Assembly: GCA_023055505.1 (NCBI GenBank)
Contig: JALIRH010000013.1
Location: forward strand, 7,254,001-7,318,000
DNA length: 64,000 bases
DNA from: Callipepla californica brunnescens
Lineage: Eukaryota; Chordata; Aves; Galliformes; Odontophoridae
Direction: 5' to 3'
Part shown: positions 7,901 to 64,000 of the stretch, in pieces
Layout of the letters: each line of letters opens with the position of its first letter
How positions within the stretch are numbered: the stretch's first letter is position 1
The notes under the pieces: model-generated
Told to the model about the DNA's origin: nothing
The model's input: the letters and a program-made list of their open reading frames with translations, nothing else
Databases searched by the model: none
Translations under genes and position numbers: made by a program

Positions 7901-10900
7901 GCCATACTTTTCCTTCCAGCCTGTGGTATCAGAGGCCTTCCTTCATCACCTCAGTGGGCATAAGCAGTGCTCAGACCACAGCTCACTCTGCTCTACACAA
8001 GACAGACCAAGATGAGAAGCCTGCTGCTGCCACTAGCATTGGGAACTGTCAGGATACCACAGCAGTACAAAGGAATTTGGCAGCAGGACCAGCACCTTCA
8101 CAAACACATCTTTTTATATGTGAATATTTACAAGCACAAAACCCTCTACCATTTGCAGCAGAACACATACATGCTGTGACACCTCTCGGTCTTCGTTGCC
8201 GATGGGCCGGTTCTCCTGAGGAGCATCTTGCAAAGGATGAGAAGATTCTGCATGTCTAGTAAATGCAACAGGTAAAAATCAGTGGACAAGTCTGACTTAG
8301 AGGTTTACCTACAAACATTTCTAAAGCATCTGCCCAGGTCACTTTCATACAGTGGTTCTACTCATGAAGCGTGCTTACACTGCTGGCAGTTAGCTCAAAC
8401 GTAAGACAAACTGTTAACCACCCTTGCTTGGCTTTGCTTTTCCTGAGAAGAGCAAGGTTAGTATTTCAAAGAACACCTGACAGACAGCAAGGCCAAACAT
8501 CACTAAGCAGTTTATGCTTGTGGCTGCTGCAACAGCTTCCAGTTTTGGTTTGACACAAACACCAATGATAGAATAAAACAATAATTCAACATCCACAGTG
8601 TAACAAAACTTATCTTGTCCTAAAGACTGCTACTAACATGTGTATACAGTAAACGATAGGGAGACTTATCCAGTGGACAGACAAGTATCTACCCCACCTT
8701 GCTCTTCATTCCAGATTAGTCCTAAAGAAACAACAGCCAGTTTAAGATTTATCTCCAATGAAAGACTTGGTACAAACAATAACTGCCTACTGCATTCACC
8801 AAGTGAGGAAGTCAAACTGGCACACGTGCTAGAAAAGAGTACACTGCATGTTACAGGTCTGAAGGTGAAGAGAAACCATTCTTCTCTAATGGCACAGGTA
8901 AAAACTCAGCAGAACTTCAGAACAATTTTGGTTTTTCTAACACACCACTGAAGGAGCCCAAGCCAGTTCTGCCACCAGGACTTTGTGGGGACAAAAACCA
9001 AACCAACAACTCCACAATTAATTTTAAAACATTATGTCTGATAATAAACACACACAAGGTTATCTTCAAAAAGAAACACACGTAACACCTAACAGAATCC
9101 AAACACTGGCCAGATTAAAAACACAGAGGAGACTGCCTAACAGGAGACACCAAACATATAAGCCAGAGATCACACTAACACAACTCAGTAGCTAGTGAGA
9201 AAAAAAGAATAAATCAATTAAAAAAAATAATTCAGACAGGAACAATCTGAGCAGTCAGTGAAGCTCTCATCTTGCAAAATCCCCTCAAATACAGAGAACT
9301 TCAGTCAAGTGGAGACCAAAGAGATGAACGAAGGTTCAGCAGCAGAGGTGATGTTCCTGAGGATGGCTGAAGATAGTTTTTATTATACAAATTAGCAAAT
9401 GTGTCTAACAGAGAAATCAGCCTCTGGAATTACACCCAAGTTGCAGACATGCTTTGTTACACAAGGACCAGAAATTGCACGGCTACAGAGAACTCCACAG
9501 ATGGCTCCGAAAACCTTAACAATGGTTTGCTAAATCCAGGCAACTTGTAACATCAACCTCACTCCTAGAACTTTCGTAAGAATTCAAGATGACTGAATTA
9601 AGGAAGAGTGACAAGTACTACCTCCAGCTTCCAGTCACACGGAGGATCTGTGGGTGTGCATTAGAATTTGTGAACTGGAGTTCAAATAAACATTTGCTAA
9701 GTGACAGTCAATCCCTAACCTGTCTGCTCCCTGGGAACAAAGAACCTGACAGCACCACAGCCATCATCTGCAGGCAAAGAAAAGTCAGAGCTGTTCTATT
9801 TCCTTGGAACACCAACGTAACCCTACCCACTGCACGTAGATGGTACAGACTGCAGGTACCCAACACATCCTTTAGGTTAGGGAGTGTCAGTGGGTTCGTG
9901 TCCTGCACTCCAGTTCATGGATAAAGTCAAACACTGCAGCCAACCCAGCTGGAGTGGGCAGCTGCTCACAGAGCTGCAAACAGAGCCATCTTCTCAGAAT
10001 GTACCACAGCTCTGAACTCAGGAAGATACTCATCGTGCAACAAGGCTGCTGCCACATGCATCACAGCTAATGGAGATGCTTGCTGGAAATTCAGTTTTTA
10101 AACCTTGCTTGTAAAACATATCTTTTTAGAAGAAAGGGACACACAACAGTTTCATGCTAGAAACTTGTTGCTAACTATCTCAACTCTAGTTGGGGGTTGG
10201 ACTAGATGATCTCAGAGGTCCCTTCCAACCTCTACAATTCTGTGATCTAAACCAAGGGTGGCTCTTCCTCACAAAGCTCATTTAATGTTTTTTGGTAATC
10301 ACTTACCAAGCTTGCCTAAAACTTGTGCTTTGTTGTTTTTTTTGTCCATTTGTCATATCACCTAAGCACAGCACATGTACTGCAGCAGTAGGATAGTACC
10401 TGTAACATCACTGAAGTTCCAGACACCAGATTCACAGTGACCTTAGGGAAAAGTGAGTGTGACAAAGAGCCGTGTGATGGCACTGAGCACATCACAGCTC
10501 AGCCAGCACTGGGACATTCTGACACCATCCTGCACGTAAACATGGCAACACAGAGCAAATGCTGAAAGGAAGGCTTGCTAGAGCAGAATACACTGCAACT
10601 GCAGAGGAGGTACTGTCCAGAAGAGCAGGCAATAGTTTCATGCACAGAAATCAATGCTGATCATTGGGCTACTCTCATAGCTTTCATCTGACAGTCTTAC
10701 CTGAATCACAGAGTTTACATATCATAAAAAAAAAAAAGTTACTGACTTGATGGTGTTAAAAGTTTAACTTAGGCTCAAGGTTTTTAGCTTTTCCTGGCTA
10801 AAGGACATGCCACAGCTTTAACAACACCAGACCAACATGAAGTCTTATCCCCAGGCCACTTTATTTTCCCTGGGAATTAAACTGGAGAAGAGATTTGATT

Positions 10901-17361: not shown

Positions 17362-34459
<17,098 letters not shown>

Positions 34460-36985: not shown

Positions 36986-37040
36986 TGGTTGGACTAGATG
37001 ATCTTGTAGGTCCTTTCCAACCTAATGTATCTATGAATCT
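36986..37040 (+). mobile_element. Short CR1 LINE 3' tail
   Basis: GGTTGGACTAGATGATCTTG, then AGGTCCTTTCCAACCT and ATGTATCTATGAATC, a CR1 terminal fragment of about 55 bp. Confidence 0.8.
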
Positions 37041-38385
37041 AAGTTAGTTAATGAAGGCAGATGACTGCTGTGCTACCCAGAGCCTCAATTTATGGTAAAA
37101 CCATGCTCCACAATTAAATATTTATAGTTTGTCTGAAAAAGGCAGTTGTTCCCAAGGCTTTGGCACCTCTGCAGCATTCTCATAAGAGTAAAGATGATTC
37201 AATTAAGTGTCAGAAGGGATTTGCTGGGCGTTAGTTGTGTGATGCAGAATTTTCTGTTGATATCAGCATGGTGTAGAAGTGGCTCACTACACAAACCCAA
37301 AATTATGGTCCAACAGCTGAATTTGAACAGTGTGATGGTTTTCTTTTTACATGAAGTGAAAAAGGGAGGGCACTAAGAGCCTGGGGAAAATACCCACTGA
37401 GTGAGAAAGATTGTCTGATTTATTATTTTAATTGCCTCATGTGCTAAGGGAGAGTCTAATTAAAGTCCTTGGAGGAATCTTCAAAGGTGGAGAGATAAAC
37501 ACTGAAATTGTTGTGTATAGCCCTTAGTGTTTCTTCTCACCTGTATAAATACAACAAATAGGAGTGCTGGATGGTGTCTTCTGAAGCTTTTCCTTTACAT
37601 GAGTAATGTAGAAGAGGCAAACATAGCTCCCCAGAAAGCAACAGCGATGCAGGGACTCTAGTGGCTGGGTTGCCATTCTGATATCTGTGTTCCTGTGCTG
37701 GTATTTGCAGAGCACGAGTACGGGATGGGTTCATGTCAGAACGTCCTGTAGTGGGCCACTGAAGTGGGCCAGTGTGTAGCCATGTGTGAATTTGCAGGTG
37801 CCAGACAACAATACTTTCTATTTTTCTTTTCTGATGACCTTTCCAATGAAATAAAGGTTTCTGTATAGAGCACAGAACTCTGTGCATCAGAGAAGCTCAT
37901 ACTATGAGATGCCCACGAGTAGGACCTCTGAGAGGTTTAGGTGTTTCTATTACTTGGTGTTTTCTTCCTGCTTTTTTTCAGTCTCATCAGTTGCCTTCTA
38001 GATACTGATACTGTCTCCTGACAGTGTAGAGCAATAATCAAAGCTAACTTCTCTGTGAGCATGTTTATCCCAAATTTGGTGTCCTTCAGGAGTGCACAGT
38101 TGGTACACGCTTGCTGTGACAGTGAGTGCTAAGCTGCTTGGTAACAGCTCTGAAATACGAGGTCTGCTTCTATGGGTATTCCTTGTCTTTTAACCTGAAA
38201 TAATCGTCACACAAAATTGGTGGCTCAAGTCTGCTACCTGAGAAAGCTGTAGTGATACTAATGAAACTCTTAACTTGCTTTTTGGTAGTGTGATAATAAT
38301 GACAGTTCTATTTCCATTACGTTTGTCCTTTTGTTTTTCAATCATATCACATGTGCGGACTACATAGATTACAAAGACTGTTCAT

Positions 38386-38906: not shown

Positions 38907-39113
38907 TCATTCTGAAACTATGACCTGATGAATGTCAGCAGGCTGCAGTATGTTTATTCTGTGCGGTGGTGGGAACAGGGAGCTTGTGATTTCATTTGGG
39001 CTGAGTGAACCAGAGTCGCTCTGAACTGAGCCCCCACTGCCATCAAACTGTGAGATTTTCTTCTTGATTATTTTCCTTTCTTTGGCTCGGCGATTCTGGA
39101 ACCAGATTTTCAC
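38907..39113 (-). CDS. CDX4: CDX4 coding exon 3 (recognition helix and tail)
   Basis: Encodes [19 protein letters not shown], the DNA-recognition helix, then a tail with [11 protein letters not shown] and the terminal HQVIVSE. Stop TGA 38907-38909. Acceptor TTGCAG|GTG. Confidence 0.97.
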   Translation of the reverse strand: MKIWFQNRRAKERKIIKKKISQFDGSGGSVQSDSGSLSPNEITSSLFPPPHRINILQPADIHQVIVSE

Positions 39114-42100
39114 CTGCAATGTTATAAGCGGCGTCTGATTAGTTTAAAGCAGTCAAACTTTTTACAGCAACAGTAGCAATGAAAAAATACATGTAAGCAA
39201 AACAAATAAACATCCCCAGTTCAGCTCCCAAAAACCGCTGCTGGATTTGTGCAGTGGGAAACTCTGAAGTTACTTTGGATTCACTTTCTGTATTATAATC
39301 AATAGAAAATCATCTGTGCTTCTCAGACATGGTGCAAAGTGAGCTTGCTGTGTTATGTTTAGGAGCACAGGATTCAGATTTCTCACTTATATTCAGTGTC
39401 TGCAGAGTTCATCATCTAAACTTTGACAGTAGCATGTGTCATACTTTAAGGAAGATGCAGTTTGAGAATACTTTTTAAGGTTTCTTCATCTCTGATAAAG
39501 GTTAATTCAAACATAAATAGTGAGAGTGCATTTTCTTCTTTCAGTTGTGATTTGTGTGGATGTGTATTCATATGCGTTTGATTTGTTTAACAGGCATCTG
39601 ATTCGTGGCTCTGTGTTGTGCCCTGCGTTCAGTTATGGCAGTGCTACTTGAGGACAATGAATTTCAAACTAAGTGTTTATTTTGAAAGACTCGTGCCTAC
39701 GTGAAACCCAATTTTAGTCAAGTATCTAAATTTTCTTCCCTTTTGCGAGGATGTAAAAGAGCAGAAAACTCTGTTTTCCTCAATGTTAATTTCCCATTCT
39801 GATCTCACTGTTTTTGTTGCATCCTTCAAGGTATACTGAATACAATACTGTACAGAATGTTCTACCGTGGCTGTATTTTCCAGGTAGTTATTTCATTATT
39901 ACCTTGCAGGTAATGACGTTAAGAAACAGTTAGCAGTGTCAGTAGCTAATACAAATACATCGTATGCTTTGACTGCATCTTACCTGAAGGAAATTTACCA
40001 ATCAAAAATTGGATGTCTTTAAGAGAAGAGCAACAGATAAAACTAGCGGTTGTTTCTGTGCGGAATCGCTAGGTGCTCCAGGTATGTCTGTGTTCTCAGC
40101 CAGCTTGCATAGCATTAGAGCGGGGGCTTGAATTTTTTATAACTGCACTTCTCTGAAAGTTGTCCAATGGAGCTATATCCCAGTGTACAACAAATGTAAG
40201 CTCTTTGGTGATGCACTTCTATCTTAGCTACTTCCCAGAGCCACAGAATATCCTGAGTTACAAAGGACCCTCAATAGCCATCAAGTGCAACTCTCTGCTC
40301 CATGCAGTACTGCTAAAACTTGATGTCTGAGCTCGTTGTCCAATGGCTGCTGGGTGCTGTGACCACTGCCCCGGGCTGGGAGTACCCAACCATTCTCTGT
40401 GTAGAACTTTTTCCTAATATCTCATATGATTTATAGTCTGTGGAGTGTAGTCTGTGTACTGTTTGGTTTTTGAGACTGAACATCACTGTGCTACAGGATG
40501 ATTCTAAACCCCAGTGCTTGCCTACTCATCCTTTTCAGCCTATAACAATCCCTCTCTGTTACCTGTTCTTGCACAGACTGAATGCAAATGAGAATGGTAT
40601 TTTAAAGGACTGAGTATGCATACAAACAATAGTTTGTCAAGTTTTAAAAAGAAAGGTCTCTTACTTAAATTTACCTGGGGCAGTAAGTCTGGTTGCTAAG
40701 GTATGAGGTGCTTTATTCAGTACCGCCCATCTTCCCTTATCTTCCAACTGTAGCAGAACCATTGACATTGTTACATAAGGAGGACTGGATGCAACAGTTG
40801 CTACACTTGCAGGCATTTCAGAAATGTGCTCTCCACCGCAGTGATTTTAGGAAATTCTCTCCTGAATTCCTCTAACCTTTGTATGAACGCAACTGAGATA
40901 GCTCAGGAGGCTGGCTTTATTCGGGGCAGTGCTTAGGTATGTACTTAACCGGAATGCAGAGGTGCTTCCCAAGTGAGCAATTGACCTAAGTATGCACTTC
41001 AAAACTTTCTGAGCAGATGGTCTGTTACGTGTATAACAGGTATAAAAATTCAGCACCCGTTTTGTAGCCTAAAGCTTCTTGTGCGTAATAGGTGTTTGTA
41101 GTAGCTGTGGACATGGCAGCAAGATGAAATCCTGACTTGAAAATCACCTGTAAAAGCTGCTTGCCACGTAAAATGGTGCATGTCATAACTATTGAGGGCT
41201 TAGCTAAGATAATGTTAAGCCAAATTGTTTAATTCCTAGCTGCCTAGCAAGCTGCTTTGCAACTAAAAATGACTACTTTTCCATACTTCTATTACAGATG
41301 AACTCGTGATACTTAGTTAGCTGTAACTAGAGGTTTCTGTCACATTAACCTATTTATTAATGTGTGGTGTATTCACTGTGTGGCTAATACATTCACAAGC
41401 TATCGTGGTTGCCCTGGTGCTACTTTTGCACACAGGACAAGAATGCTGTTTGTATCTTCTGGCAGCAGCCGTGTCTGGTGAAGGGGTGCAGGCGTTGGTT
41501 AGTCTCTGGGTGTACCTGTCTTTCAGATAGTCCAAGGTTTGCTGCAAGTTCTGACTTTCTCCTTATTGTAATGTATCTGTTGCAGTGAAATTCCTTCTCT
41601 AATTCTAGTCTCTGGTGGTCTGTGTAAACAACCCGGTACTTCTCTTTTGTTCTTGTTTTACCTGTTTGAGAAAGAAATAGTATTAATTCTCTGAGGTTGA
41701 TTTTATGTAGCATCTTTCTTTCATGCATCTCAATCATCTCACAGGCAGTAAATAAAACTGCAGGGTATTGCACAAGACTGTTTTCTGAGATTATTTTCTG
41801 TGTTGCAGAGGAATATGAAGTACATAGTAAATAAGTTTCATTTTTTTCTAAACGTTTTGAGAGCACGTTGGTTATCATAGTTATCTTTTTCCCTCTCTCT
41901 CTCTGTAAGCATACATCTAAATATAAAGCTCTTATGTGAAGAATGTCCTGAAGCATCTTAAATTCGTAGCAATAACTTAATTAGTACTGGATACATTTGA
42001 GCTCCAGATTTCACGTCACTGTTCTGTATATCTCTCAGAATGTCAGGACTGACTCTGTCAGAGTTTGCTTATTTACGCCATGTCCTAATTCTTTATTTGG

Positions 42101-45100
42101 GCTTTTGCAGCTCACCTCTGTAACACGAAGAAACATCCACTCCTTCCTTTTAGCCATGCTTAGAAGTTCAATAATGACGTGGTATTTTTTCAGTAAGGTG
42201 TGGTTTTGCAAGGCGCTGAGTGCCTGTGGGTTCACTTGGTGTGCGCTGTTTCCATTTGAAATCACAGACACTCAACAACTTATAAGACTAGACAATAAAA
42301 TACTTGTAAAATCATTTTCTTTTGATTGGACAAATACCATTAAGAGAAAAGTTACTTGATATCTAGAAGATACTTTTCAATTCTTACCCTTTTTTAAAAC
42401 AATTATTTGTCTAGTATTAATGCAGAGAGATGACTTTTGAACTGATTTTTTTTCTCATTTTCACTTTTAACTGCCAGCTAGGTACTTGCTCTTTTTCGTC
42501 TGATCTTCCCAGGTTTCTGTTTTTTTGATGTGAGTTTTCTGGGACAAACTGTAAGACAAAGACTCCTTTAAAGTGGTTCCCTAAAATCCATTGAGGTGTT
42601 AAGATGAAGCACACGCCACACAAAAGAGCGACAAGGAGATCTTATCAAGAGCTCCTTTTACATTCAGAACACAAGCCAATTGGTTTGGAATTTACAAGCC
42701 CTAAACAAATGTCAGACTCTTTCATCTTAGCTGAAGGAAAAAAAGGACAGGAATAAATCGAGTATTTTTGCTTCAGTTCTCTTCAGCTTTGGGCAGATAT
42801 TTAGGGTAAAATGAGATTTTTGCATGAAGGTTAAGACATTTTGAAATATGAAGTGTGTTTTTCTAAGTTCTGTGCTGCTTTGATTGCTAAAGTACAGGAT
42901 CTTCCTGCTTAATTTTGCAGGGCCAAAACATTCATTAAACTCAAGTTTACTTTTTTAGAAGTTACAATGTGTTGGCTTTGAAATATTTGCTCTAGATGAT
43001 AGTTAGAGTGCTAACAGTGGTATAGATATTCAGATTCCATGTAAACTAAAGGCTTAGGAGGTAATCTTTGAAAAGAAGTTAAAATTCAACAGGGTTATTC
43101 CGGATTCAATATAATCAGCAAATATAACCATGATTTGAGGGGGTGGAGAGAAGGAGTAGTTTTCCCCATTCCCCTTGGTCGTAAAATTCACAGAGCATTT
43201 CTTCTGAAGACAATAAAGCTAGGAGAAGGCCTCTTTATTTGCTGTGAAAATCATCACCCTTTCCGGCAATATAACTCCTGAAGAAAAAAGGGAGAAGGAA
43301 GAGACGAGGCTGCATATCAAAGCAAAGAGAAGTGTTGAGAGGGTCTGCTGCCCCAATATGACAGATAGGCCTCAAAACCAAAGACAATGTAGCCCAGTGG
43401 AAAATAATGTCTCGACTAGTTTACAAAGAAAAAATAAATTAGCATTACAGCAGAGACTTGGCCTTTATTTATTTATTTATTTATTTTGCTTTTCTGTTTT
43501 GCTTTCTAGCTGTGTTTCTGCTGTGATGTAATCTCAATTATTTGGACATCACTGCTTGTTATGGTGTAAAAGTATTGAGTATACTTGAAAAAACAAAACC
43601 AACCAAACAAAAACCACTGAACAACCTGAAGCTGATCTTGCAAAATATACAAAATGTTCTTGTCCTGTTCTGTTGTTCTTTTTCTGAGAGGGATCGTACC
43701 CAGCTGAAATGACATGTAAAGATTTCAAGTTCTTGACCCTTGTTCAGGTGTGATCTCTTCAGTTAGTTTCATGCCTTGAAGATTTGCTCTCCCAGAGTTG
43801 CACTTTTTACACATAAACTCACAGAGTTTAGGAATGATTTGGTCTGAAGTTTTAGTCTCACATAATTGAAGCTATTTGGGCAAGGTGAAAGTGCTCCTTC
43901 TGGAGCCCGTGTGGGAAGATGCATTTACCAAGCCCTCTCTGGATGTTTGTTTTTTAAACTTTCCTATACAGACATTGCAAATGTATTTATCAATATCTGA
44001 AAAAAAAAATCTGAACACGCAATTATAGTTTTCTACTTAGAAGATACATTAACAGTAAAATTTCAAACTAAGTCTGCACTGCTGTAAGCATGTAGCACTT
44101 CAGTCTCTGTGGTACTGTCATATCCTGAAGACTGTCTTGCTCAGGCAAATTTTCAATTCAGCCTTCCTGAATTGTCTTTTTTTTCATATAAAATGCCAAA
44201 TATATTGAATCAGTGTAAATATTTAAATAGAGGGGATAAAATTCAATTAACAGTTTCCCCAAGTAGTTCCCAGTGTGTTAGTATTTTAGTACACTTCCTC
44301 GTTTAATTGTATGCGCTTGAATTTTTGTTATTCCATGCTGCTCACGTAAATTAGTGTGGCTGTGCACCAGGAGTGTTGTGAAGGACATGTGTATGTAGAT
44401 AAATATTTGTAGCATTCAGGGCTGAATAATTTTGATATTTTAGAAAAAGAGTGATATTAGTGAGCAGTGCGATTGTAGGGGAGGAGCCAGTAAAAATCTG
44501 TTTCAAAGAGGGGTCAGTGGCATCGAGGTTTTATTATGCTCTGGAGAAAGGACTGACGAGTTAGTGTGCAGCTCCTTGCACCACGTTGCTCTTGCCATTA
44601 TCCTGTAATTTCATTTCATATCACTTTTTCTGACAAATTTTTCCAGCTTTTACACTTAACATTGTAATAAGAACTCTGATGAAAAGCTGAGTGTAATTTG
44701 GTACTTTCCTTGTTTTGCAAAACAGCCAAGTCTGTGTTTTACTTTCCCAAACCCTTTGCATTAAGCAGGTTTGTTGTCTTGAGTCAAATTCAGTGTGGTC
44801 TTGAGCTGTTTGTAACACTTCAAAGGACTGGGCTCCAGGGTTGTAAAGCCTCGGGGCATTTATCTATGCACAGCCCCCAGTTCACCTGTCCAGTATTGTC
44901 CATGAGCTGTTCCAGCATGGGTGTAAATTGTGTGCTTTTCAGACTAGAGATGAATTGAAGCACATAGCTGCTTTTCTGAACTGCATCTACGTTTTATGAA
45001 GTTTAGTAGAACTTAGCAGTGCCTTCCTTGTCTGTGCGTTACATTCAGGACTGAGGTTTAGATTTTGTATGCTTTAATCTTAAAACATCCTAGCATGTTT

Positions 45101-46763
45101 AAACTTCAGTGACACGGCAGAAGGGGATGGCTTTTTGACGTTGCACCATTCTCACTTGCTTCTGGTCTGCCTTAGCTCTTGCATCACTTTCACACCTGGA
45201 AGACTCCAATGATGTTAATGAAGTTACTGCAGATTCACATGAGGATACATGATCGAGGGGAGCAGAGTTGAAATCTGCCTGGCTTTGAAGATTATTGTAA
45301 AGGCTTCCAATGGAACTAACACATTGTGATACCTTAATGTCCTCGAGGTATTTTATACTGGGTAAAAAGGAGGAAACAGCACGTATCTACTTTATAACTG
45401 AGAAACAATTATTAGACTCGTTCCACTCTTGAGTGATAATGTTGGAAGGATTATTTCTCAAGTGGCACTGCTGATTTTCTGTCTTCTAGAACTGCTCCAG
45501 TTGTCATTGCGCTAATTTCTTTACAGAGTTTTCTTTGATGCTCTCTGACACGCACTTACTACTTTTAACCTTAACAATGGCTTTAGCAAACCTTGCTACG
45601 CACAATTTACACCTTGGGAATATACACAGAAAAGCTCTCCTGACGTGCAGCTTGTGACTGGAACAGGCACATCAATGACTGACACTTGGAGGAAAGTGAG
45701 TTTTGGATGTCTAATAGTAGCAAGCTGCAAAATTTTGATTTGAAAGTAAATGAAGCAAAAGCTTAACTGATAGAGATACATGGTCTGCAAAGAAAATAGT
45801 CTGTGCAGGGTATTTGAGTCAGATTGCTTGTCTGGGGATATTTCTTCTCATAGGTCTCTGGAACAGTAAATATCACAAAAACAACAGAAAAAAATGCGTT
45901 ATCACATATTTTTTCCTTGAAAGTATTTGGAAGTCTGTAAAGGTTTAAGATGAGCCAGCTTGTAGATTGAACTTTACCTTTTGGCATAAAATAATTATGT
46001 ATTGTTTTTGCAGGTAACTGCTAACAGCAGCATTTCCAGGTGTCAGTTCTCATCTATGACGCTTTGTATTTGTTAGAACAAAGATACTCAGATGTGAGTT
46101 TGTAGCCACATGTAAACACAACCGCCATTCTACCACAGTCACATAAAACCTTTATGGGGTGAAAGTGAAACTAGTGTAAATTCAGTTAAATCTGCATTAA
46201 GCAGTAGTAGGTTAAATAAATGCCATAAATGATCCACCGACCTACGTGCTTTAAGTACAGTTAATTATTTATAAGATCAGTGATAGCAGAAAAAATTCTT
46301 CTTGAGATAGAAAGTTTAGTGCACGCTTACCAGTAGTGTTGGTTTGCACGGCTTTCCTCATCCATTCGTAAGAGCTGTGCCTTTGGCTGCTGGGGGAGAC
46401 CTGCTGTGCGGTACCTGCAGGAGGTAACCCCGCGGGTGCGGCGGGATGGAGGGAGCTGTACTCAGCTGGACTGTAGGAGCCGTGCCCAGGAGATGAGCCG
46501 CTGAGCTGTGCGGCGGCAGCCGTGCCGGAGGGCCCTGGGCACGGCCCGTAAGCGTTCCAGTCCTCCCTCTGGGGGCCGTAGTGGGGTCCCCAGGCTCCCG
46601 CGGGCTGTCCGTGGCTGTCTGGAGCTGGCACGTGGTGATACCCCATGTAGTCTGAGTAGGGGGGAGCAGGCACGAAGTTCTGCACTGGCAGGTTGTTGTT
46701 GCTGCACCTTGCAGGTCCTGGATACATGCTGGTCTCTTTATCCAAGAGAGAGCTCACGTACAT
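38907..46763 (-). CDS. CDX4: CDX4, caudal-type homeobox transcription factor (complete, three exons)
   Basis: CDX4 is a ParaHox transcription factor that drives posterior HOX genes, axis elongation and blood specification. Exons: 46331-46763, 41516-41661, 38907-39113. Phases (1, then 0) fit exactly and give 261 aa (human about 284). The N-terminus [16 protein letters not shown] and the motif [16 protein letters not shown] match CDX4, as does the pre-homeodomain hexapeptide region [11 protein letters not shown]. The homeodomain spans [20 protein letters not shown] to [13 protein letters not shown] and is intact. The tail [20 protein letters not shown] and terminal HQVIVSE match mammalian CDX4 (QQVIVSE). 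Position next to CHIC1 is the mammalian arrangement. A TATA-like AATAAAAG (minus, about 46883-46890) lies about 120 bp above the ATG. Secure. Confidence 0.97.
39114..41515 (-). other. CDX4 intron 2
   Basis: 2.4 kb, containing an inverted CR1 (40243-40570). No shared element with intron 2 of the neighbouring CDX gene was convincing by eye. Confidence 0.55.
40243..40570 (-). mobile_element. CR1 LINE 3' region, sense to CDX4
   Basis: Reverse-complement CR1: CACAGAATATCCTGAGTTAC followed by AAAGGACC, and later the block with CTCATCCTTTTCAGCC. About 330 bp and diverged. It reads on the minus strand. Confidence 0.8.
41516..41661 (-). CDS. CDX4: CDX4 coding exon 2 (homeodomain helices 1-2)
   Basis: 146 nt encoding [40 protein letters not shown] and [15 protein letters not shown] with Cys is the CDX4 version. 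Acceptor TCAAACAG|GT; donor ACAG|GTACAC, phase 0. Confidence 0.97.
42577..42665. promoter_or_regulatory. Shared intron-1 element X, CDX4 copy (diverged)
   Basis: Aligns with 61764-61845 in the other CDX intron 1. The ordered exact words are TTCCCT, GTTAAGATG (42598-42606), CACAAAAGAGC (42619-42629) and GATCTTATC (42638-42646), separated by small indels. The last word contains a GATA core on the minus strand. It lies between exon 2 and block Y in both genes. Confidence 0.6.
43169..43396. promoter_or_regulatory. Shared intron-1 element Y, CDX4 copy (228 bp, identical to 62863-63090)
   Basis: Every one of 228 bases matches the copy in the neighbouring gene's intron 1, with no gap (constant offset 19694). 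It contains GGTCGTAAAA (43177-43186, CDX/posterior-HOX type). TTCCGG (43261-43266) is an ETS core, CCGGAA, on the minus strand. TATCAAAG (43315-43322) is TCF/LEF type, and ACAATG (43384-43389) is SOX type. An enhancer role is inferred from position, sharing and motif content. A short tail of similarity continues at 43415-43445. Confidence 0.75.
43466..43489. repeat. (TTTA)n microsatellite
   Basis: About six tandem TTTA units just beyond shared element Y in CDX4 intron 1. It is absent from the corresponding place in the other CDX intron. Confidence 0.9.
46331..46763 (-). CDS. CDX4: CDX4 coding exon 1 (transactivation region)
   Basis: ATG 46761-46763 begins [16 protein letters not shown]. The middle is rich in Pro, Gly, Ala and Ser. 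It ends [17 protein letters not shown], where the Trp-containing motif contacts PBX/TALE cofactors in relatives. Donor G|GTAAGC, phase 1. The exon is GC-rich (about 46380-46720) within an AT-rich surround. Confidence 0.96.
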
Positions 46764-49700
46764 GATGCTTGCAGAATGTTGTCACAACATCTTGCTCTTC
46801 CGTATTTTCTTTTGTCGCTTACAAATAATTGTTCTATTTTTGCTAATAGTGCCAAACTGCTTGAAATCTTCTACTTCATCCTCTTTTATTATCAACTGTG
46901 TTACCAGGTGCTGGTGGTAATGGTTTACCAAGATCTTGTCTGACGTCAGCCAAACTCCCAGCCTCATAATTACATTTACATTCAAATGAAGGGCTGACCA
47001 ACCCCACCTTGCTGCCAGTTCTGGTGCTTTCTCTTTTGCAGAACTTTTATCTGTCCCATTACCCTTCACTGATATTCAACAGTGATTCCACTCCTGTAAC
47101 GTGATGCAACTGTTGCTTGTATTTGGAACTTAGTGAGCAGACCTTTTTTTAAAGAAAAACATCTAAGTACCATACACTGCCATTACAGTTCAAATAATTC
47201 TTTTCAGGGATGTATATTTTTTGTCATTTGTTGTCAGTCAACAAGTATATCTATTACTCTCTTAATTTGTCAGATGCTCAAAAATCTCATTTTAAATTCT
47301 TCATTAATGGATGCAGTCAATTTGAATAATAACTGTCTCAAAAATTTCCCACTTGTTGCTGATGTTTGTAAGCTTTTTAGTATAGAGTAATTAAAATTCT
47401 GTCTGCCACAAACATGTTCATGCTTTCCCCATAGGTGGTGTTTTAGAGAGATCTCTTGGCTGTTGCAAATGGATTATTTTTAGGAAGTAGGCAGTAGGTC
47501 TTCTTAACAAATGGTAGCAGATATGTAAAGAAGATGACAAAAAACTCTGAAGAAAGTCTTATATTAGGCCCAGCACTATTGTTGGTATGTGATTCAAGCT
47601 GATGATGACTCTGACGTGTCTGAAAGGCCTTCCTCTGAAACCCGTGTGTAGTTTGTTCAGTGGTGGCAGCTGGAGCAGTGGCATGAAGTGGCTGCAACCT
47701 CTGTCAGAGGTCAGAACTGCCCTGCTGTGTGTCTGCTGGGTGCTTGCCACTTGGTAGTGTGCAGTGAGCTTTTTCACCAGGAGGAATCATTCCAAATTTG
47801 TTGTTGCATGTGATTATTAGGAATGTGATATTAATGTGGGAGAATTAGACCACTTTTTGTTACTCGAGAACTGCCTCGATGTGGCTGCCTCGTTACAATT
47901 TGTAGAGTGCTTTTAATATCAGATTTTTATCTTGGATTCATTTCTTTGCTGTGAGCTATTTGTCAGGGGTATGCCTGCAAAAGAGGTGCAAATTGTAATG
48001 ACTTGTTTCCCTTTATGAAGGTGTGGATCTTCATTCTGCTGCCTTTGTATTTTGACGCTGCTTATGCTCGCACATCCCTTCTAATTTCAGCACCAAAGGA
48101 TTCTGTGTCCTTAAAGAGGAAGGATTCTTTTTTTTTTTTTTTTAAGACTTTTTATTGATAAATGTTGCAGTCTTTAAGGTTAATTTTTTATAGTTATGAA
48201 TTTATTTCTTATTCCATGCAGTGATGCTGAGGAAAGCTGCATTGTGGGATAGGACATGGAAAAAGTTAGACCCCTGTTATTGATGTGCCCCTTATTTAAA
48301 AATAAAGTAAAAAGTGCATATCTGGACTACATATGGAGCACCACTGAGATTAAACAAGATGAGGTTTCCTATCCTGAAAGTGTTTTATATATTGTATATG
48401 TACTTAGAACTTAATTTTTAACTGTCTTCCTTTGTTTATGCTTCTCCTCAAGCCACCACAGTTTCACTATCACTTGATCCTATTTTTTGTATCTCAGTGC
48501 CTTATCCTTCATTCCTTGTTCTTCTTTTATCTTTTGTTTATGCTCCTCCTTTCCCTTTCTTGTTTTGCCTGTTCCATTATCTGAAATTTCTTTAGATCTA
48601 TTTCGATTCTTTCCAGAACATAATTAGATCAAGATATGCTGATCACGAATTGCTGTACTGATTTGATATCGGTTGACAATAGTTAACTTTGGATAAGGCA
48701 TTTTGTTTAAACAGATTTACATAGAAGGATAAGATTGGTGGGTAAGACTGCAGATTTTTTTAACGCCAGAGTGAGAATAAGATAACTAAAATGGCAGCAT
48801 TCAAATGATCTTCCACATCCTGACTGTTTGCCTCTCATTTTGTATCAAAGAACTGTGTGGTTCATTAGAAACGAACCACATCTTTTCGTGTAGTCTAGTA
48901 TTTTAAGGTATCATAATTTTGAAATTGATGGGTTTTGAGAACTAAATCTAAGCCCTTCCATGAATAATTTCTTAGCCACCCATGTGTTGTTCCACTCATA
49001 TCCTCCCTATCGTTAGCTTCAGAGCCACATCACCTTCAGTGTAGAAGTGACTTACTCTGCACGAGTTTCTGGAACTCTGCAGTTCCAGAAACACTTTTAG
49101 TACACATTGCTGTCAAATGAGAGAGGGAGAGAGAGATCTCTGCCCTTTCCCTGTCCATATTTGCACTGTGATGGAGCAGCAGTGAGTTGCTGGTGGGAGA
49201 GCAAGGGCGAGTGTGCTGCTTATGGCTGATCCATGTGGTTGTGGAGCTGTCATGTTACCATGGTCCTTCTTTGCCTTTCTGAGGTGAGAGGAAAGGGGAA
49301 GAAGGTCTGAGGCAGTAGGCCTCATCGATACAGAGGCTTGTATGTATACAATTTTTAGCAGTGGGGGAAAAATACAGAATAGGAATCTCTGGTAAGGTAC
49401 TGGCAGCAAGGCTGCTGCACATTGTGTGCTTCAGAGAGGCTGGTGGCCACAGAGAACTGAGCTCCAAAGTAATCATTTTTCATTTTGCTCCAACTGTCAA
49501 AGCATTATGTCTAAGTTAGCTAATGTCAATGGGAATTGCCCGAGCTTTTGGTTGAAATGAAGTAGTTTGTGTGTAAAATTAAATATCAATAGATTACTCT
49601 GCAAGGAATGCCCTATATTTGTTTCCATGGAAAGTACAACAGATACAAAGTGCACCATACTCAACAGAGCAGATTCTCAGCTACAAAACCCTACTTTTAG

Positions 49701-55797: not shown

Positions 55798-56052
55798 TTA
55801 CTGAGAGGCCACCACCTGCTGCAGGTTCCCGGAGTGCTGCAGGCCGTTCATTGGAAGCGGAGCTGGCGGAGGTGGAGGTGGGAACAAAGAGCTGGGCATT
55901 TCTGAGTGAGTCTGTTGGTCGGGAGCTGGCATCGGGCTCACTGAGCCAGAGTCACTCTGCATAGAGCCAAGATTACTGCCATCAAAATGAGTCATTTTCT
56001 TCTTCATTAATTTTCTTTCTTTGGCTCTGCGATTCTGGAACCAGATTTTCAC
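55798..56052 (-). CDS. CDX4-like coding exon 3 (recognition helix and tail)
   Basis: Encodes [19 protein letters not shown] and an 84-residue segment in all, ending NLQQVVASQ with stop TAA (55798-55800). Acceptor CTGCAG|GTG. The tail is longer than that of CDX4 and contains [14 protein letters not shown]. Confidence 0.95.
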   Translation of the reverse strand: MKIWFQNRRAKERKLMKKKMTHFDGSNLGSMQSDSGSVSPMPAPDQQTHSEMPSSLFPPPPPPAPLPMNGLQHSGNLQQVVASQ

Positions 56053-58970
56053 CTGCAGAGGAGCAGAGGAAATTTTTTTCAGTTGTTAATAGAATGCAGT
56101 GTGGTTCTTTGTATGGTCAAGGGGCGTAGGAGAAAATCAACTGCATGAGGTCCAGTGAGAGAGGCAGCAGCAAATTGGGACAGCTGAGCTCTTTGCTTGA
56201 TTTTATACATTTTTTTCCCACATAGGTAATCTTTCCTATTTCATAATAAAATATTTAGTTTGATAAATAGCTTTATTAGTGTTTTATTCCTAGGAAGTAT
56301 TTATTAAATGAGTTTGATCTTTTTTTTTTTTTTTCTTTTTGGCACAAAGTCTAACAGAACCTAATGCATCACAGCAGTGGCCAAAAGAATATGAAAGTAT
56401 CTTTGAAAAGTATATTCTGTAAGTCAGAGCAACTCAGAGCCTGTTGCTGGCCTATGAACTGAGAAAAGATTCCCCTTTTGGATGCTGAACTCCTTTGCTA
56501 CAATTGTAAGGCAACAGAAATACACCTGTGAGCAGAAATTCACCACTGCACTGCTGTAGGTATGCGTTACTTCAGAGTATTATAGAAGTGGTGCCTCAAT
56601 AGGTAAGCACTTTTTCCTGCATGTGTAGACAAAGTTAAAAGCTGCTGCTACTTCCCACACAGTCCGTGACTTTATTTCATAGTCATTGCTCTGTCACAGC
56701 AATGCAGTCTTTGAGAAGAGATGAACTATTGAAGATTAAACGGATTTTGATTTGGACAGAACAGGTGAGGACATGAGAAGATGACAGTGCTCAATTAAAA
56801 ATGCAGCAGAAGTTGTTCAGGTGTGAAAAAGCGACTCTTCTGTGGTAACTGAAATGTCACTGGGTATGAATCCCTGATGTGGGCTTTAAGTCTGTGTGTA
56901 TCATTGGAAATGATTCTCTATTATGTATAGTCTGCATGATAGGTCAGATTATCACATTTGGATGTAGTTTTGTATTTAATCAGATGACAAAGGCAGTGCT
57001 TTTGTCAACAGCTTTTTATCAACCCAAGGAAAAATCTGTGGTTTTCTGAGAAATGCTGATTTGTTTTCTTTTCTAGCTGCTCAGCAGAGAGAGAACTGAC
57101 AATCAGAAAGAAGGAAAAACAGTAAAACTGATGGTATCTGTGACCATTAAAAGAAATCCCACAAGACATCACGAGGACTCAGTGCCAGTTTGTGTTCTTA
57201 TTCTTGAGCCATTATTATGCCCATTTTCCAGCTGAATGTGACAATTCTAGGTGCACATAAAGCTTACAAAAATTTGAGCCCGGGTTTCTTAGGTCCCTGG
57301 CTGTCATCTCAAACATGCAGCAGTTCATTCTGTTGTCCTCATTTCTGAAATATCACTTTAGTAGCAAATGATGTTCATGTTCTATTAAAGCTGTCAAAAA
57401 TATCCTACATTCTGTCTGTGCTGTGGTAATCTGGCTTTTCCCATCATCTGCCAGAGTATATGAAGAGATGAAACTGTCTAATAAACAGAGTAACACCTGG
57501 TTCAGGTTTGCTCTCTATGTTCTGTGATATCTGCTTTGAATGTAGGGGTTTTATTCTTTTCCATCAATAAGCTGGATGTAGAGATCTGCAGCAGAGATCC
57601 AGAGCAATGTTTTAGTAGGCATTTAAAGGTTGCATACCAGTTATCAGATACAAGTAAATACAAATCTGTAACGTCAGACTTACAGCTTCTGTGGACTTGT
57701 TCTTTACCTGGTGCTCTCCTTTTACAGTACTTTTGCCACTGCTTAGTTGTGCAAGTAATCCCGCAGTGCAAGTTTAGCTCTTCTTTCTTGTCCTCGCCAT
57801 CTGTTTATTTTTGTATCCTGTCTATATCAGAAGTGCTTCATTTATCACTTAAAAAATAACTAGATATTACTTCTTCACTTTCTTGTTTATGTGTCGTTCT
57901 TTGTTCTTCTGTCTTGAGATAATCTATTTGCGGAGTTCCTCCAATGAAGCTTTTAAAATCGTTGCTTACTTCAGTGCACTGTGGTAAGGAATCCCCAAGT
58001 AAATTGGAACAGGACATGCTCAGCCCATGTTAGAACTATAACAGAGCTCTAAACTGACGTTTCATCTTGGTTGGCATGAGCCAGCTGAGGTGCTTGAAAG
58101 CCAGCGTCTGTGCTCCTGCTTCGCCATAGCAGGAGGTGGCATAGGCACAACAATTACGTGATTCAAGAATGTGGCACTGAGTGGTTCCAGAACAAATTGT
58201 ATCTATCTTTTTGTCAGGAAAAATTGATTCCATGTATGGGAAAGGAAGTGGAGTTTGCAGGGAATGGAGGGAAATAGGGAAAGGAGAAAGGATGAGCAAG
58301 TGTGTAGGAGATTTTAAAGAAAAGGTAGAAGGTGACCAAGACCCAAATATCTTCAGTGTCCTGAACATACTGGAATTCGTCACTAACAGTACCTATGCCT
58401 CTGCTAAGAATGGCCTTGCTTAAGGTCTCCCATGACCTCAGAGGAGCCAGGGCTAGGAAATGTTTGCAAAAGCTTCTCCCTTCTAATACTGACCCAGCTG
58501 AACAGCAAGAAGTCCTGGCAGGATTCGGTTGTTGGTTTCTCAGAGCAAGACTGTGTCAGGCTTCTCTTTGTCTTTTCTGTGCAGTTGCTCAGCTCTGTGC
58601 TGTAATCATGTCAGCTGAACTAGTGCTGATGGGATATTTCAAAGGAATGCAAACAAAGCCATCAGGCCATTCAGCTGGACAGTATGAGCCCCTAAATCGC
58701 AGAGGGAACGCAGCCACGTTAGATTCAAGGCATAAGCATTTCTGTATTCCTAACCAGCGTGGTGTTATCCTCCTCAGCAATAATAAATGCAAAGGAAACT
58801 CTGAATGGATAATCCATACTCTACCTGTCTCTCGGAAAGTCTTAGGTTTGCAGCAAGTTCAGACTTCCTCCTGATTGTAATGTATCTGTTGTAATGAAAT
58901 TCCTTCTCTAATTCTAATCTCTGATGATCTGTGTAAACCACTCGGTACTTCTCTCTTGTTCTTGTTTTAC
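55798..58970 (-). CDS. CDX4-like caudal homeobox gene, exons 2-3 (tandem paralogue; exon 1 outside window)
   Basis: A second caudal-type homeobox gene, same strand, about 9 kb upstream of CDX4. Exons 58825-58970 (146 nt, the same length and phases as CDX4 exon 2) and 55798-56052 encode an intact homeodomain: [20 protein letters not shown] to [13 protein letters not shown]. The tail is [20 protein letters not shown], then [19 protein letters not shown], a polyproline run and terminal LQQVVASQ. The QSDSGSxSP box and LQQVV end tie it to CDX4 rather than CDX1 or CDX2. Compared with CDX4 the exon 2 protein has K-to-R, C-to-Y and G-to-R (NLRLSERQ) changes. Splice sites and frames are clean, so it looks functional. 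Exon 1 was not found up to 64000. By analogy with CDX4 (3 kb beyond element Y) it is expected near 66 kb. Confidence 0.9.
56053..58824 (-). other. CDX4-like intron 2
   Basis: 2.8 kb of unique AT-rich sequence with a T run near 56321. Plus-strand frames such as 58395-58874 run antisense across exon 2 and show no domain. Confidence 0.55.
58825..58970 (-). CDS. CDX4-like coding exon 2 (homeodomain helices 1-2)
   Basis: Encodes [40 protein letters not shown] and NLRLSERQ. Acceptor TTTCAAAACAG|GT; donor ACAG|GTAGAG. By hand alignment it differs from CDX4 exon 2 at about 17 of 146 bases, mostly synonymous. Confidence 0.95.
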
Positions 58971-61763
58971 CTGTTTTGAAAGAAGAACACATTGCTTCAA
59001 CCCAGAACTTTTTAACTTCAGTAACATAAATATCTGACTTCACATTTTACACACGTGGGTATTTTAGGCCTGGTTCTCTATGCACTTACCCAGAGTAACT
59101 TCCTTGACTGCAGTGCACTTGGTATCAGTTTACAACAGGAGAGGGTAATGCCATCAGCTATTGGGTTTGCTCCTTAGTAAATAGATGATAAACTGGTGCT
59201 CATATTCTTTATTACCCTTGGGTTATCGTTTGGGCAAGAGAAGTTGTTCTCGTTAAGAACAAGGAGCCAGGAAGCCTGGGTTCTGTTCCCAGTTCTGATG
59301 CAGGCTTTACTGCACAGTGTTGAATTACTTTTTTCTCTTCCCTGAAGCTGATTGAATGCCACTTGATTTGGAGATGAATTGTGAAGGATGTTTTACTGCA
59401 CAGAAAGTACTGAGAGCTTCCAAAGGTTCTCAGACCCTGTCGCTAGAAATATTGATATGATGTTGTTATTGCAGTTTGGCGGTTGTGTCTTTCCTTCAAG
59501 TCTAGCACAACCTAACCAAGCCTTGATCATGTCTCAGGGAGTAGTACGATAAATTTACAGATGGCAGTTAATTAAAAAAGGAGGAAAGGAAAGCAATAAT
59601 ACTTAACAGAGGACATTCAAATAATGCTAGAATTGCACCACTGGTTCCTTTTCAGGCAGCGTGGTTGCAGCATTTCAGATGTGGGTACAGCTGACTGAAG
59701 CAGACATGGCTCATCAGTAACTGGGTCATTAAAAAGGTAAGAGCAAATGACATGAGCAAGTGAACACAGGTGCAAGTAGCTGGAATGTATTGATTTCATA
59801 TAGGATCATTTGTGAGGAGAGAAGATGTTGGCAGTCATTAAATGCAACTGAGAATGAGGAAGGTTGCTGATGCTTCCTTTCTCACCAGCCTTTCCACTCT
59901 TGTTAATGTTCATTTTAGGCAAACAAAATCTTAGAGGTCAACAGCTGCTTAAAATCAGCTCCTGAGCCCTGCCCTAAGGTCTTCCTACATTTTAGAAAGA
60001 TTAGGTTGTCTGGGGGCTAAAACCAGTGTTACAGTGTTTGCAAATAGTGTCTTGTTGATTTGTTTTGTGCTTTCTTGTCTGTTTTCACTTGGATGCTTCT
60101 TCAGATATGTATATCTGTCTGTAAATTGTCCAGGACAGAGAACACCTTTGTAGTTGGTGATCTCTGCTATGTGTTGCACAGTGGTACTGTGCTTTGTGAA
60201 CCTTCCCGTCTAGCGGGTGGGAGCAGCCCCACTGCAGTCAGATTCTCTGGGAGCCTACGTAAAATGGGAGGCATAGTGGGGCTTGCTGACTGTAGCAGTC
60301 TGATCGTGCTGCAGGTGTAGCTTAGCTTCATAAAAAGGCTTTTTGGATCTTTGTCTTACAGAGCATTTTCTGAAAAAAAAAAAAAGAAAAAAAAAAAGTG
60401 CATGCATGCCTAACTCTTCAGAAAAAGATTTACCTCAAACTTAGAATACTTTCACCGGTGATGAGAGTAATTAGTGGAGAGCACCAAAATAGACTTTCAG
60501 TAAATGAATTGGCAAAATGTCCACGTCTGAGCAGCTGCCCATGGTGTGTCACTGAGCAACCAGCCACCCCTGCAGCACAAAACAGCTGGGGGTTTATTGG
60601 TGGTACCGAAGTCTGGTTACTCCTCAGCCCCTTCTTCCCTAGCTTGTGAAGTAGTACCCAAAGCTCAGAATTCAAGGTACAGAACTGTAATGGAATCTTG
60701 AAGTACTTTATCCTTTAATCCCTGATTTGGTTTCACTGGTTAATATGTTTTTCCCTATCAGTGGAGAAAGATGTAGTTTCATTGTTTTAACAACTGAATA
60801 TATTTAAAGTTAGTTGCCTTCTACTTGTTATCTAAATGCATACACCATGTTTTAATGAATTCTCCTCCAGGATTTGCCTTTGTTGTCAAACTGCAAGAAT
60901 TTTTGACTCACTGAGGTACTATGTACATGTCCAGATTCTTAAGATGATCCATTTTGTACTGTTTGTATAGGTATTAGATGCACAGTTGTTCAGCACTGAA
61001 GTCCTGGTCACTGTAGTGCTGTAAACAAAATACCTGTGTCTGTATGCAGTGAGTGGCTCAGCCTATGTGAAAGGCTCTCTCAGGGACTCCTCCTAGCTTG
61101 CATTACAAGATCTACGACAGAATTCGGTCCCTTAGCTTTCATACTTCTGGCTCTTTGACTGTGGGAAAGCACTGTGCATTAATAGTGAGTTTACAACGAT
61201 ATGGATATTTTCCAACTGTCATGAGGTCATCATTGTGTTTACTTGGAACATTTCAGTAGGAAAAATAAATGTATACGTTTTTATTTGTTGCTTATGCTGG
61301 TGTCTCTGCTCCCTCCATGCAGCCCAAACGACTCTCTGTTAAATGAATCTGTTAACTTTCTTGTTACGTTCTGCTGTGCTGTGCTTGGCTGGGTCAGGCA
61401 TTCTCAGCTCGGTAGCATTTCTGTTACTGTAGAACTGTAGTGAAAAGCAGAATTAGCCCAATTATGTTTATCCAGATAATCAAGTGAAAAGTGCTGCTAA
61501 TTTTACAGTATTATGGTGAAAATGTTAAAGTCTCTGGAGAGCTGCAGTTATTTAGCTGTGTCCACATGAACACTATGACATTTGTTTTCATTCATTCAAA
61601 GTGTAAATTGTTTAACATATGGCATGTGTTGTGCTTTGATGATTTACTTGGTGTATTTTAACCTTAGATCTGTAGCCTGTTTTTTTCTTTTTTTTTTTTT
61701 TTTCTTTCCCCTCTTCAGATGAGAACTTGAGGTCATTCTATGGGACAGAAATGTTTAAGGTAT

Positions 61764-61845
61764 TTCCCTAGTCTCTTTTGTGTTGTTAAGATGGAGAACA
61801 CAAAAGAGCAAAGCGATCTTATCTTCAGCTCTATTCTCATTCCGA
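61764..61845. promoter_or_regulatory. Shared intron-1 element X, CDX4-like copy
   Basis: Counterpart of 42577-42665: GTTAAGATG (61785-61793), CACAAAAGAGC (61799-61809) and GATCTTATC (61815-61823) in the same order and spacing apart from small indels. Confidence 0.6.
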
Positions 61846-62862
61846 AGTCACAGACAAATATCAGATGTGCTTCTGTTGCCAAAACAAGATGGAAAACTTC
61901 AAGGTATAGCTTCCTATTCCTGACTTTCAGTGCTTAAACCCTTATCTGCACTGTAGAGGTCTGAGATCTGCTGAGGTCTCCAGAGAAGAGCCCACGATGT
62001 TGGCAACATCATGTTTTGCTCTCAGTGAGGCCTGGTGAGGTCCCAGCGTCTGTGAGGGACTTCCATACCCCTTTGTTGGATGCTGTCTTGGAGTTCCTCT
62101 GCATGTGGCATTTCATTTCAAAGGCAGAGTGGACTTTTTTATTTATTTTCCAAATCAACAGCAATAAAACCTGTTGTTAAACAGGTTGGCAGAGTATAGG
62201 GCATTCTGTCATGAATCTTACAGATCTTCTGCTCATTTCAATTACAGTAATGCATTTTATTTCAAGAAGTACTACCTGAGTAAAATCTGAGGTAGAACTA
62301 ATGCATCACCCCAGAGACAGCAGAAGGATGTTCTTCATTTGTCAGATCTCTTTGGTAGAGAATGAAAAAAAATTAATGATCCAGTGATGATGGTTAACAT
62401 TTTAATCCTGCAGATTTCACTCAGGTGAGTGAAATTACCAACATTTACCTTTTGACAACCTTACTCTTTTATTAAAAAGAAATTTTAATAGATTGCTTTT
62501 AATCAGCAATTGAGTATGATTTTATTGGGATTGTATTGTTCCAGAGTCATAGCGTGGAGCTGCAGGTGGCTGAGGAGTTATCAGTGGCTGGGTGGAACTA
62601 AAATAAAGAGCTTTGAAAACTGCCTCTGTGTTGAGGGGGCAGATTTTCTGAGTTCAGTGAGCTATTTAAGAACAGCAAGTTTTGCCAAAACCTGTTTTTA
62701 CAAATAGTGATTATTTAGGAGTGCCTTTAGAATGAGGAGAAATAAGGTATTTCAGCATTAGAAAACTTTCTGTGAGATAAAGTTTAACAATCCTGTCTTA
62801 TCACACCCACTTCAGCAATTTTTGTGACTGGCCAAGTTCTGAGTTGGGGGAAGGGAACAGCT

Positions 62863-63090
62863 TTCCCCTTGGTCGTAAAATTCACAGAGCATTTCTTCTG
62901 AAGACAATAAAGCTAGGAGAAGGCCTCTTTATTTGCTGTGAAAATCATCACCCTTTCCGGCAATATAACTCCTGAAGAAAAAAGGGAGAAGGAAGAGACG
63001 AGGCTGCATATCAAAGCAAAGAGAAGTGTTGAGAGGGTCTGCTGCCCCAATATGACAGATAGGCCTCAAAACCAAAGACAATGTAGCCCA
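62863..63090. promoter_or_regulatory. Shared intron-1 element Y, CDX4-like copy (228 bp, identical to 43169-43396)
   Basis: Second copy of the invariant block. Motifs are at 62871-62880 (CDX/HOX type), 62955-62960 (ETS), 63009-63016 (TCF/LEF) and 63078-63083 (SOX type). Similarity resumes at 63141-63170 after an unrelated 50-bp spacer, against 18 bp in the CDX4 copy. Confidence 0.75.
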
Positions 63091-64000
63091 GGAAAGGAGG
63101 AAAAAAAAACAAAACCAAACCAACACTGTCAGACCTCACAACTAGTTTACAAAGTAAAATAAATTAGCATGAGAACTGGTCCCTGGCCCCTTCCTTGCAC
63201 CTCCTCTCTGAACTGTCCAGGAATACCCTTCCTCTACCTAAACTGACATCATTCCTAAAATCCAGTGGCCAACTAATCTAGACAGATGTCCTTTACATAA
63301 TTATGTCAGATTACTTACAAGTGTCAGCATTTCAATTGTATAGCTTACTATTGTTTGAGAGGGAGTTGGTATCTGTACTTGATGGCTGAAAGGCAGTATA
63401 AGTCAGCTTCAAATGTGGAGCAGTTTTCTGGCCTAAAGATATGTTCTGTTCTGTTCATATTCACGTCTTTATGATGGCACAGTGTTAAGAGAGGGAGTAG
63501 TTAGCTTTCTGAGTTATTAATAAAGGACCACTGGATATCAGGGCCCAGAGGTGTGGATATTTATTTATTCATTTACTTATCTATTTTTGTGTGAGAGCTA
63601 TTTCTAAATATTCATGCAGTTTAAAATTTAGAAAAGGAAAGGTCCAAACTCACCCTAGGGAGTTTCACTGGTTTAACTGATTTTGTGGAACGAACGCGAT
63701 TTAAATGAATAAATGCCTTGAAGAGATTCACTGTGCTGCCCGTGAAGTTCTGTGAAGTTATGAGAGTACTGTCCTGCCACAAGTCTCAGTGAGCTGAATA
63801 GAAATATTGCCAAGTTACATGCATAGAGGTTTGTGATGCTGAAATTCTAGATTTGAATTTTCTGCTGGGTCTTGATCATTTTTTTTCTTATACATGCTCA
63901 GGTGACTTGTGAAAAGAACAGGGGAATATCACAGAACCAGAAACTTTCACTGGACCTAGAGATTTTCCCCTCTGTTCTGCTGATTTCTATTTAAAGTGCG

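Follow-up and report, generated by a model that had tools for sequence, protein, structure and literature searches.

A tandem CDX4 pair of birds with a homogenised first exon and an identical intronic block, most likely maintained by gene conversion

Long-lived concerted evolution of gene pairs is in itself already known. Among insects, the neighbouring homeobox paralogues engrailed and invected are said to evolve in concert. In mammals, three pairs, BMP8A/B, DDX19A/B and TUBG1/2, have been in concerted evolution for >100 million years and, according to the accessible text of the study, raised third-position GC is significant in two of them (Carson and Scherer 2009, PMC2720389). A linked pair of Dlx genes in Capitella teleta carries a 150-bp tract, comprising the homeobox and part of an intron, which the available part of the report ascribes to gene conversion, while the rest of the two genes has diverged (PMC3199776). 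For the amphioxus genes Pax3/7a and Pax3/7b, the region studied in the source contains, according to its accessible portion, no conserved non-coding element that is present more than once, which implies diverged regulation; the pair described below differs in having a non-coding element that recurs at 100% identity (PMC6010424).

The vertebrate Cdx literature, in the available parts of three papers, deals with three genes, Cdx1, Cdx2 and Cdx4, with no second Cdx4 (PMC2543028, PMC4304130, PMC4471637). A partial search of the literature, mostly without subscription papers, returned no description of CDX4 as a tandem pair in birds, nor of gene conversion acting on CDX4. In this work we analyse such a pair in a genomic window, by which we mean the whole stretch of 64,000 bases under study (C13:7254001-7318000 of its own assembly, which comprises 1,085,249,470 bases in 321 contigs).

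The CDX4 pair and the block in intron 1

The two paralogues, here called G1 (left) and G2 (right), are arranged head to tail, both on the minus strand. According to the spliced reading frame, supplemented by tblastn for exon 1, the coding sequence of G1 is made up of exon 1 (coding part 46331-46763), exon 2 with the first part of the homeobox (41516-41661) and exon 3 (coding part including the stop codon, 38907-39113), which together yield a product of 261 aa. G2 encodes 279 aa in exon 1 (67358-67796 in window numbering, outside the window), exon 2, again with the first part of the homeobox (58825-58970), and exon 3 (coding part including the stop codon, 55798-56052). A protein search with G1 gave 2289 matches, of which the best 120 were used; among these, the nearest named full proteins are CDX-4-like and CDX-1-like of the New World quail Cyrtonyx montezumae, the former (P0002) 97% identical to G1 and the latter (P0005) of the G2 type among the matches listed.

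The assembly contains two CDX4-type genes, both on C13, while the genes that we take to be CDX1 and CDX2 by their sequence lie on C14 and C1. Downstream of G1, on the minus strand, there are exons (17365-27137) presumably belonging to a CHIC1-like gene, with 75-95% identity to a piece of human CHIC1. Because CDX1- and CDX2-like genes are found elsewhere in the genome and CHIC1-like exons follow G1, we regard G1 and G2 as a tandem CDX4 pair. CHIC1 is a known neighbour of CDX4, and XIST arose in mammals beside the conserved CDX4-CHIC1 linkage, as stated in the accessible text of the source (PMC2430539). G2 is thus not CDX1, and the database label "CDX-1-like" given to G2-type proteins is misleading and hides the CDX4 pair. 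Among the matches listed, both types are present in birds, squamates and caecilians, turtles have them in different species, and tuatara has G2 alone; the other birds have two types and no third. A copy number that stays at two fits gene conversion and not unequal crossing over. In one protein model from Melospiza melodia (P0001), exons 2-3 of the G2 type are joined to a whole G1; it is a read-through model and agrees with G2 preceding G1 in a passerine. Two repeats were also observed, one dispersed and short (817-872, 10192-10246 and 36987-37041, with copies 82-89% identical and an inverted copy beyond the window), the other a direct repeat beyond the window (L005:7251-7572 vs L005:8876-9206, 331 columns, 95% identity, 1.6 kb apart).

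According to the original prediction, intron 1 of the two genes shares a non-coding block in which 43169-43396 equals 62863-63090 at every base. This is confirmed (0 differences in 228 positions), and the match runs one base further to the right and no base further to the left, so that the blocks in G1 (43169-43397) and G2 (62863-63091), both on the minus strand and spaced by 19.7 kb, agree at 229 of 229 positions. At the rate of difference seen in exon 2, no change in 229 positions has a probability of 5e-13, and at the non-synonymous rate of exon 2 it is 0.002; chance is excluded as the source of the identity. The number of copies, which the same prediction had proposed to count, is two: a search of the whole assembly (E 0.001 or better) found only the two blocks themselves, which rules out an interspersed repeat. 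Homology with introns of the other CDX genes was rejected as well: against the regions of this genome that surround CDX2 (15 kb) and CDX1 (20 kb), the block gave a best E of 0.056, and nothing rose above chance.

The flanks of the block had been described as mostly unalignable, which holds for most of their length, but not for an unlisted patch of 49 columns just past the right edge, where 43415-43463 in G1 is 80% identical to 63141-63188 in G2 (minus strand, E 1.2e-4). This diverged patch points to a homologous element that formerly extended further. Elsewhere in intron 1, a weak similarity was found between 42378-42679 and 61579-61857 (60% over 305 columns, E 8e-10), which may be the decayed remnant of another element common to both genes.

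Exon 1 versus exons 2-3 within and between species

The block is not the only part of the two genes that has been homogenised. In exon 1, 46353-46745 of G1 (minus strand) is identical to 67380-67778 of G2, outside the window, except for one 6-bp indel; the tract of ~393 aligned bases consists of exact runs of 337 and 58 bp that overlap by two bases at the indel. Across 130 gap-free codons, none of the 89 synonymous and none of the 301 non-synonymous sites has changed, whereas the ends of the same exon differ between G1 and G2 at 5 of the first 18 and 7 of the last 22 bases. Exon 2, by contrast, differs at 17 of 146 bases (14 synonymous and 3 non-synonymous changes, as originally counted), which corresponds to 14 changes at 31.3 synonymous sites, 3 at 115.7 non-synonymous ones and a dS of 0.68; at this rate, the probability of 0/89 synonymous changes is 1e-23. 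Exon 3 can be aligned over 124 columns, with 83% identity. The longest exact runs common to both genes (337, 229 and 58 bp) all fall within the two islands, and elsewhere they reach at most 29 bp. Since the silent sites are identical and the identity stops within the exon, the identity of exon 1 argues for transfer of sequence rather than selection on the protein. Of the idea of gene conversion confined to the block, put forward at the outset, the conversion is well supported at this locus but the confinement is wrong, as ~393 bp of exon 1 are homogenised too.

Third-position GC is higher in the core of exon 1 (92/133) than in exons 2-3 (52/117 and 67/133; Fisher p 1e-4 and 0.003), although a high GC content is common in first exons in general. 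The GC content of the block is 100/229, compared with 725/2000 in the near flanks (p 0.03) and 4824/12599 in all of intron 1 (p 0.10), a weak rise that loses significance against the intron as a whole. Upstream of exon 1, a promoter-side patch (46901-47015 vs 67964-68087) contains exact runs of 17-22 bp and is similar, not homogenised.

For the comparison across species we analysed, besides the pair from the window, same-species pairs from seven birds, three squamates and one caecilian. In six of the seven bird pairs the copies are on contigs of equal size, and in Sylvia they are on different contigs. Several further species were left uncounted: Merops (P0040/P0096, both G2-type models), Nipponia (P0019/P0069, a pair of G1-type models), Pavo (P0051/P0074, in each of which exon 3 is of the G2 type), Melospiza (the joined model mentioned above) and Melopsittacus (P0008/P0083), in which the G2 homeobox model is broken and the exon-1 cores, with 3 differences in 107 residues and 12 gap columns, are in line with the other birds.

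Within a bird species, the two exon-1 cores differ at 0-5 of 108-121 residues (with 0-7 gap columns). The closest of the other species compared is 3 residues away for the two quails and 21-32 away for the remaining six birds, and in 8/8 bird species the nearest row is the paralogue of the same species. Exons 2-3 behave in the opposite way: the two copies of one bird are 72-77% identical, and its G1 is 94-99% identical to the best G1 of another species. In the 30-row tree of the exon-1 core, the paralogue label changes 13 times, which is the maximum possible with 13 G1 rows, and a tree that holds G2 as one clade is rejected (p-AU 1e-46), whereas in the tree of exons 2-3 for the same number of rows the label changes once, with a support of 99/96. 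Support for single bird pairs is uneven (85/62 for Formicarius, 94/90 for Manacus). This bird and Cyrtonyx each have two exon-1 cores that agree at every aligned residue, and the species differ from each other at 3; the two copies from the window cluster apart from those of Cyrtonyx (98/87), which makes it likely that exchange continued after these quails parted. A first exon that groups by species and exons 2-3 that group by paralogue in eight birds amount to concerted evolution, and the concerted evolution of exon 1 is best explained by recurrent gene conversion.

The homogenisation of exon 1 is seen in the DNA of this genome and, in each of the seven other birds, in the proteins. This also bears on the possibility that the assembly process used reads of one intron to fill or polish the other, which the zero differences between the blocks would fit. 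We consider such an artefact very improbable, given that there is no N in 104 kb, that the flanks differ on both sides of the block, and that the exon-1 pattern recurs in the seven other birds with species-specific sequences.

The pair itself appears to be old. On exons 2-3, one copy of the caecilian Rhinatrema belongs with G1 and the other with G2, which would place the origin of the pair no later than the caecilian-amniote split, an estimate that leans on the G2 branch (99/96). By the ages of these lineages, a pair shared with caecilians is older than mammalian pairs of >100 million years. In the exon-1 core, the two copies of Rhinatrema group together (96/95), yet differ at 15 of 127 residues. 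A lungfish row with a long branch is placed beside the caecilian G1 (85/74); either this pushes the origin of the pair further back, or the placement is an error. Rows from two turtle species also point to concerted evolution (88/81). Mammals are represented among the best 120 matches by two monotreme rows, both G1-like, which hints that mammals may have lost G2. In squamates (rows P0059/P0071, P0060/P0076 and P0101/P0102), the exon-1 copies differ at 58 of 134 residues in Rhineura, 48 of 135 in Eublepharis and 36 of 94 in Lerista; Lerista was included in this pairwise comparison of residues and left out of the trees and of the core-difference counts, because its G1 exon 1 is cut short. The copies of Eublepharis still group, weakly (89/54). 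Since the squamate copies have strongly diverged, conversion is not universal, and in these lineages it has apparently stopped or never persisted.

The block in other animals and its candidate role

To follow the block beyond this genome, a protein collection was searched with its translations, which returned two matching rows with one copy each: P0121 (45 aa, labelled jgi, on two contigs) and P0122 (61 aa, labelled lgn, on one contig). Over 162 bases of the block, a minimum of 9 differences is forced by P0122; P0121 forces 1 in 135, or 2 in 138 should its reading finish at a stop codon rather than at the end of a contig. The sole forced change of P0121, at site 43353, is also present in P0122, and the two copies of this bird agree there. 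If constraint alone were acting, 0/229 would have a probability of 2e-6 at the rate of P0122, of 4e-4 at the pooled rate (10/294), and of 0.18 (1/135) or 0.035 (2/138) at the rate of P0121. The forced differences in both rows indicate that the block is not invariant between animals, and a block that varies between animals while its old copies within one genome are identical is what conversion predicts, although two rows with one copy each are thin evidence. On near-invariance, as expected of an ultraconserved non-coding element, the two rows differ, P0122 departing from it and P0121 coming close to it. The probabilities at the rate of P0121 imply in turn that constraint surely contributes to the identity. 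Beside the block, the reading frame of P0122 (GFFFLSWATL) is closer to that of G2 (CFFFLLSWATL) than to that of G1 (RDIIFHWATL), so a G2-like copy of the block likely exists elsewhere.

As to its nature, both strands of the block are traversed by reading frames, one of which has stayed open in P0122; on visual inspection, there is no acceptor AG at the block edge in the orientation of the gene, and a hidden exon is unlikely. No family of Rfam reached its gathering score between 36000 and 64000, and a structured RNA of a known family was rejected. One 22-base piece had no exact match in viral contigs, and the block had no match in phage records; with no such matches, a viral or phage origin was rejected. 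CDX-like sites of the form TTTA[TC][TG] occur 3 times in the block, counting both strands, compared with 0.54 in shuffles (P 0.004), but this is one of 13 patterns tried, P is about 0.05 after correction, and no claim is built on the excess of the motif. The block, which is apparently non-coding, kept in both genes and has CDX-like sites in excess, may on these grounds be an enhancer of both genes, as predicted here; the shared enhancer of the original prediction is a plausible reading.

Could purifying selection alone, with nearly all bases of a common enhancer constrained and no exchange between the copies, account for the identity? A non-coding element that contains CDX-like sites, with a conserved patch adjoining it, would be compatible with such constraint, as would the single forced difference of P0121. 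We nevertheless regard this explanation as very unlikely: P0122 demonstrates that bases of the block do change between species, the edges of the block are abrupt, and the 89 identical synonymous sites of exon 1 are beyond the reach of constraint on the protein. Constraint on nearly every base, which the original prediction had offered as one of its readings, is accordingly unsupported as the sole cause by the differences counted in P0122 and P0121.

An origin of very low probability, in our view, is recent copying and insertion, in which a templated insertion or microduplication from the other intron would have placed the block where no prior homologue existed to be converted. Such an event would agree with the 100% identity and with the fact that nothing can be aligned directly to the left of the block. 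However, both blocks sit in intron 1, share one orientation and are collinear with the exons on either side of them, and the 80% identical patch follows on the right; collinearity and this patch suggest that the element was already present in both introns. Besides, exon 1 has been homogenised too, and the G2-like flank of P0122 makes a G2-like copy elsewhere likely, evidence that covers the G2 type only.

Proposed mechanism and comparison with known gene pairs

With the alternatives weighed, we judge recurrent interlocus gene conversion to be the most likely reason why the two copies of the block stay identical, and it has likely overwritten ~393 bp of exon 1 as well; for the block, concerted evolution is inferred from the exon-1 pattern, from the identity of the two copies and from the two translations. 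According to the mechanism that we propose, selection on the N-terminal region of the protein and on the probable regulatory element in the intron would preserve two long stretches of homology, which would serve as templates for repair between the G1 and G2 copies. Each repair event would write one copy over the other, wiping out their differences, so that the stretch would remain usable in later rounds. Exon 2, with 146 bp, and exon 3, with ~124 bp that can be aligned, probably lack the length that conversion requires, and the remaining parts of the introns would be too diverged. We would tentatively go further and suggest that the two islands, being self-sustaining, lock a CDX4 pair of tetrapod age into a common N-terminal domain and a common intronic enhancer, while the homeodomains and tails diverge; on this somewhat doubtful extension, the lengths of the identical islands (393 and 229 bp) and of the diverged stretches (146 and 124 bp) would set bounds on how much homology conversion requires in the bird germline.

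If conversion does maintain the block, copying, and not constraint, can keep a regulatory element in step between paralogues, and the identity of paralogues alone would be no measure of functional constraint. It would also be an unusually old case, one that recurs in every bird compared and in the caecilian, not in three squamates, and the contrast between birds and squamates makes the persistence or stopping of conversion in gene pairs directly testable.

The CDX4 pair resembles BMP8A/B, DDX19A/B and TUBG1/2 in that the copies are linked and mosaic, introns take part in the homogenised portions, GC3 is raised in two of the three mammalian pairs and in the exon-1 core here, and many species are involved. 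As far as the available text of that study describes the mammalian pairs, their fragments span neighbouring exons and introns, whereas here a non-coding island stands alone in an unalignable intron; the CDX4 pair, moreover, encodes a homeodomain factor and on the tree is shared with caecilians, hence older (PMC2720389). With the Dlx genes of Capitella, in turn, it shares the linkage of homeobox genes and the presence of short converted tracts amid divergence. The Dlx pair, however, is inverted, was described in one species and, in the accessible part of the report, has a homogenised homeobox, whereas in the CDX4 pair the homeobox diverges, and it is the N-terminal exon, in many species, and the intron element that are homogenised (PMC3199776). 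What sets this locus apart from the known pairs is the isolated non-coding island at 100% identity, the combination of a diverging homeobox with a homogenised N-terminal exon, and the breadth and likely age of the phenomenon.
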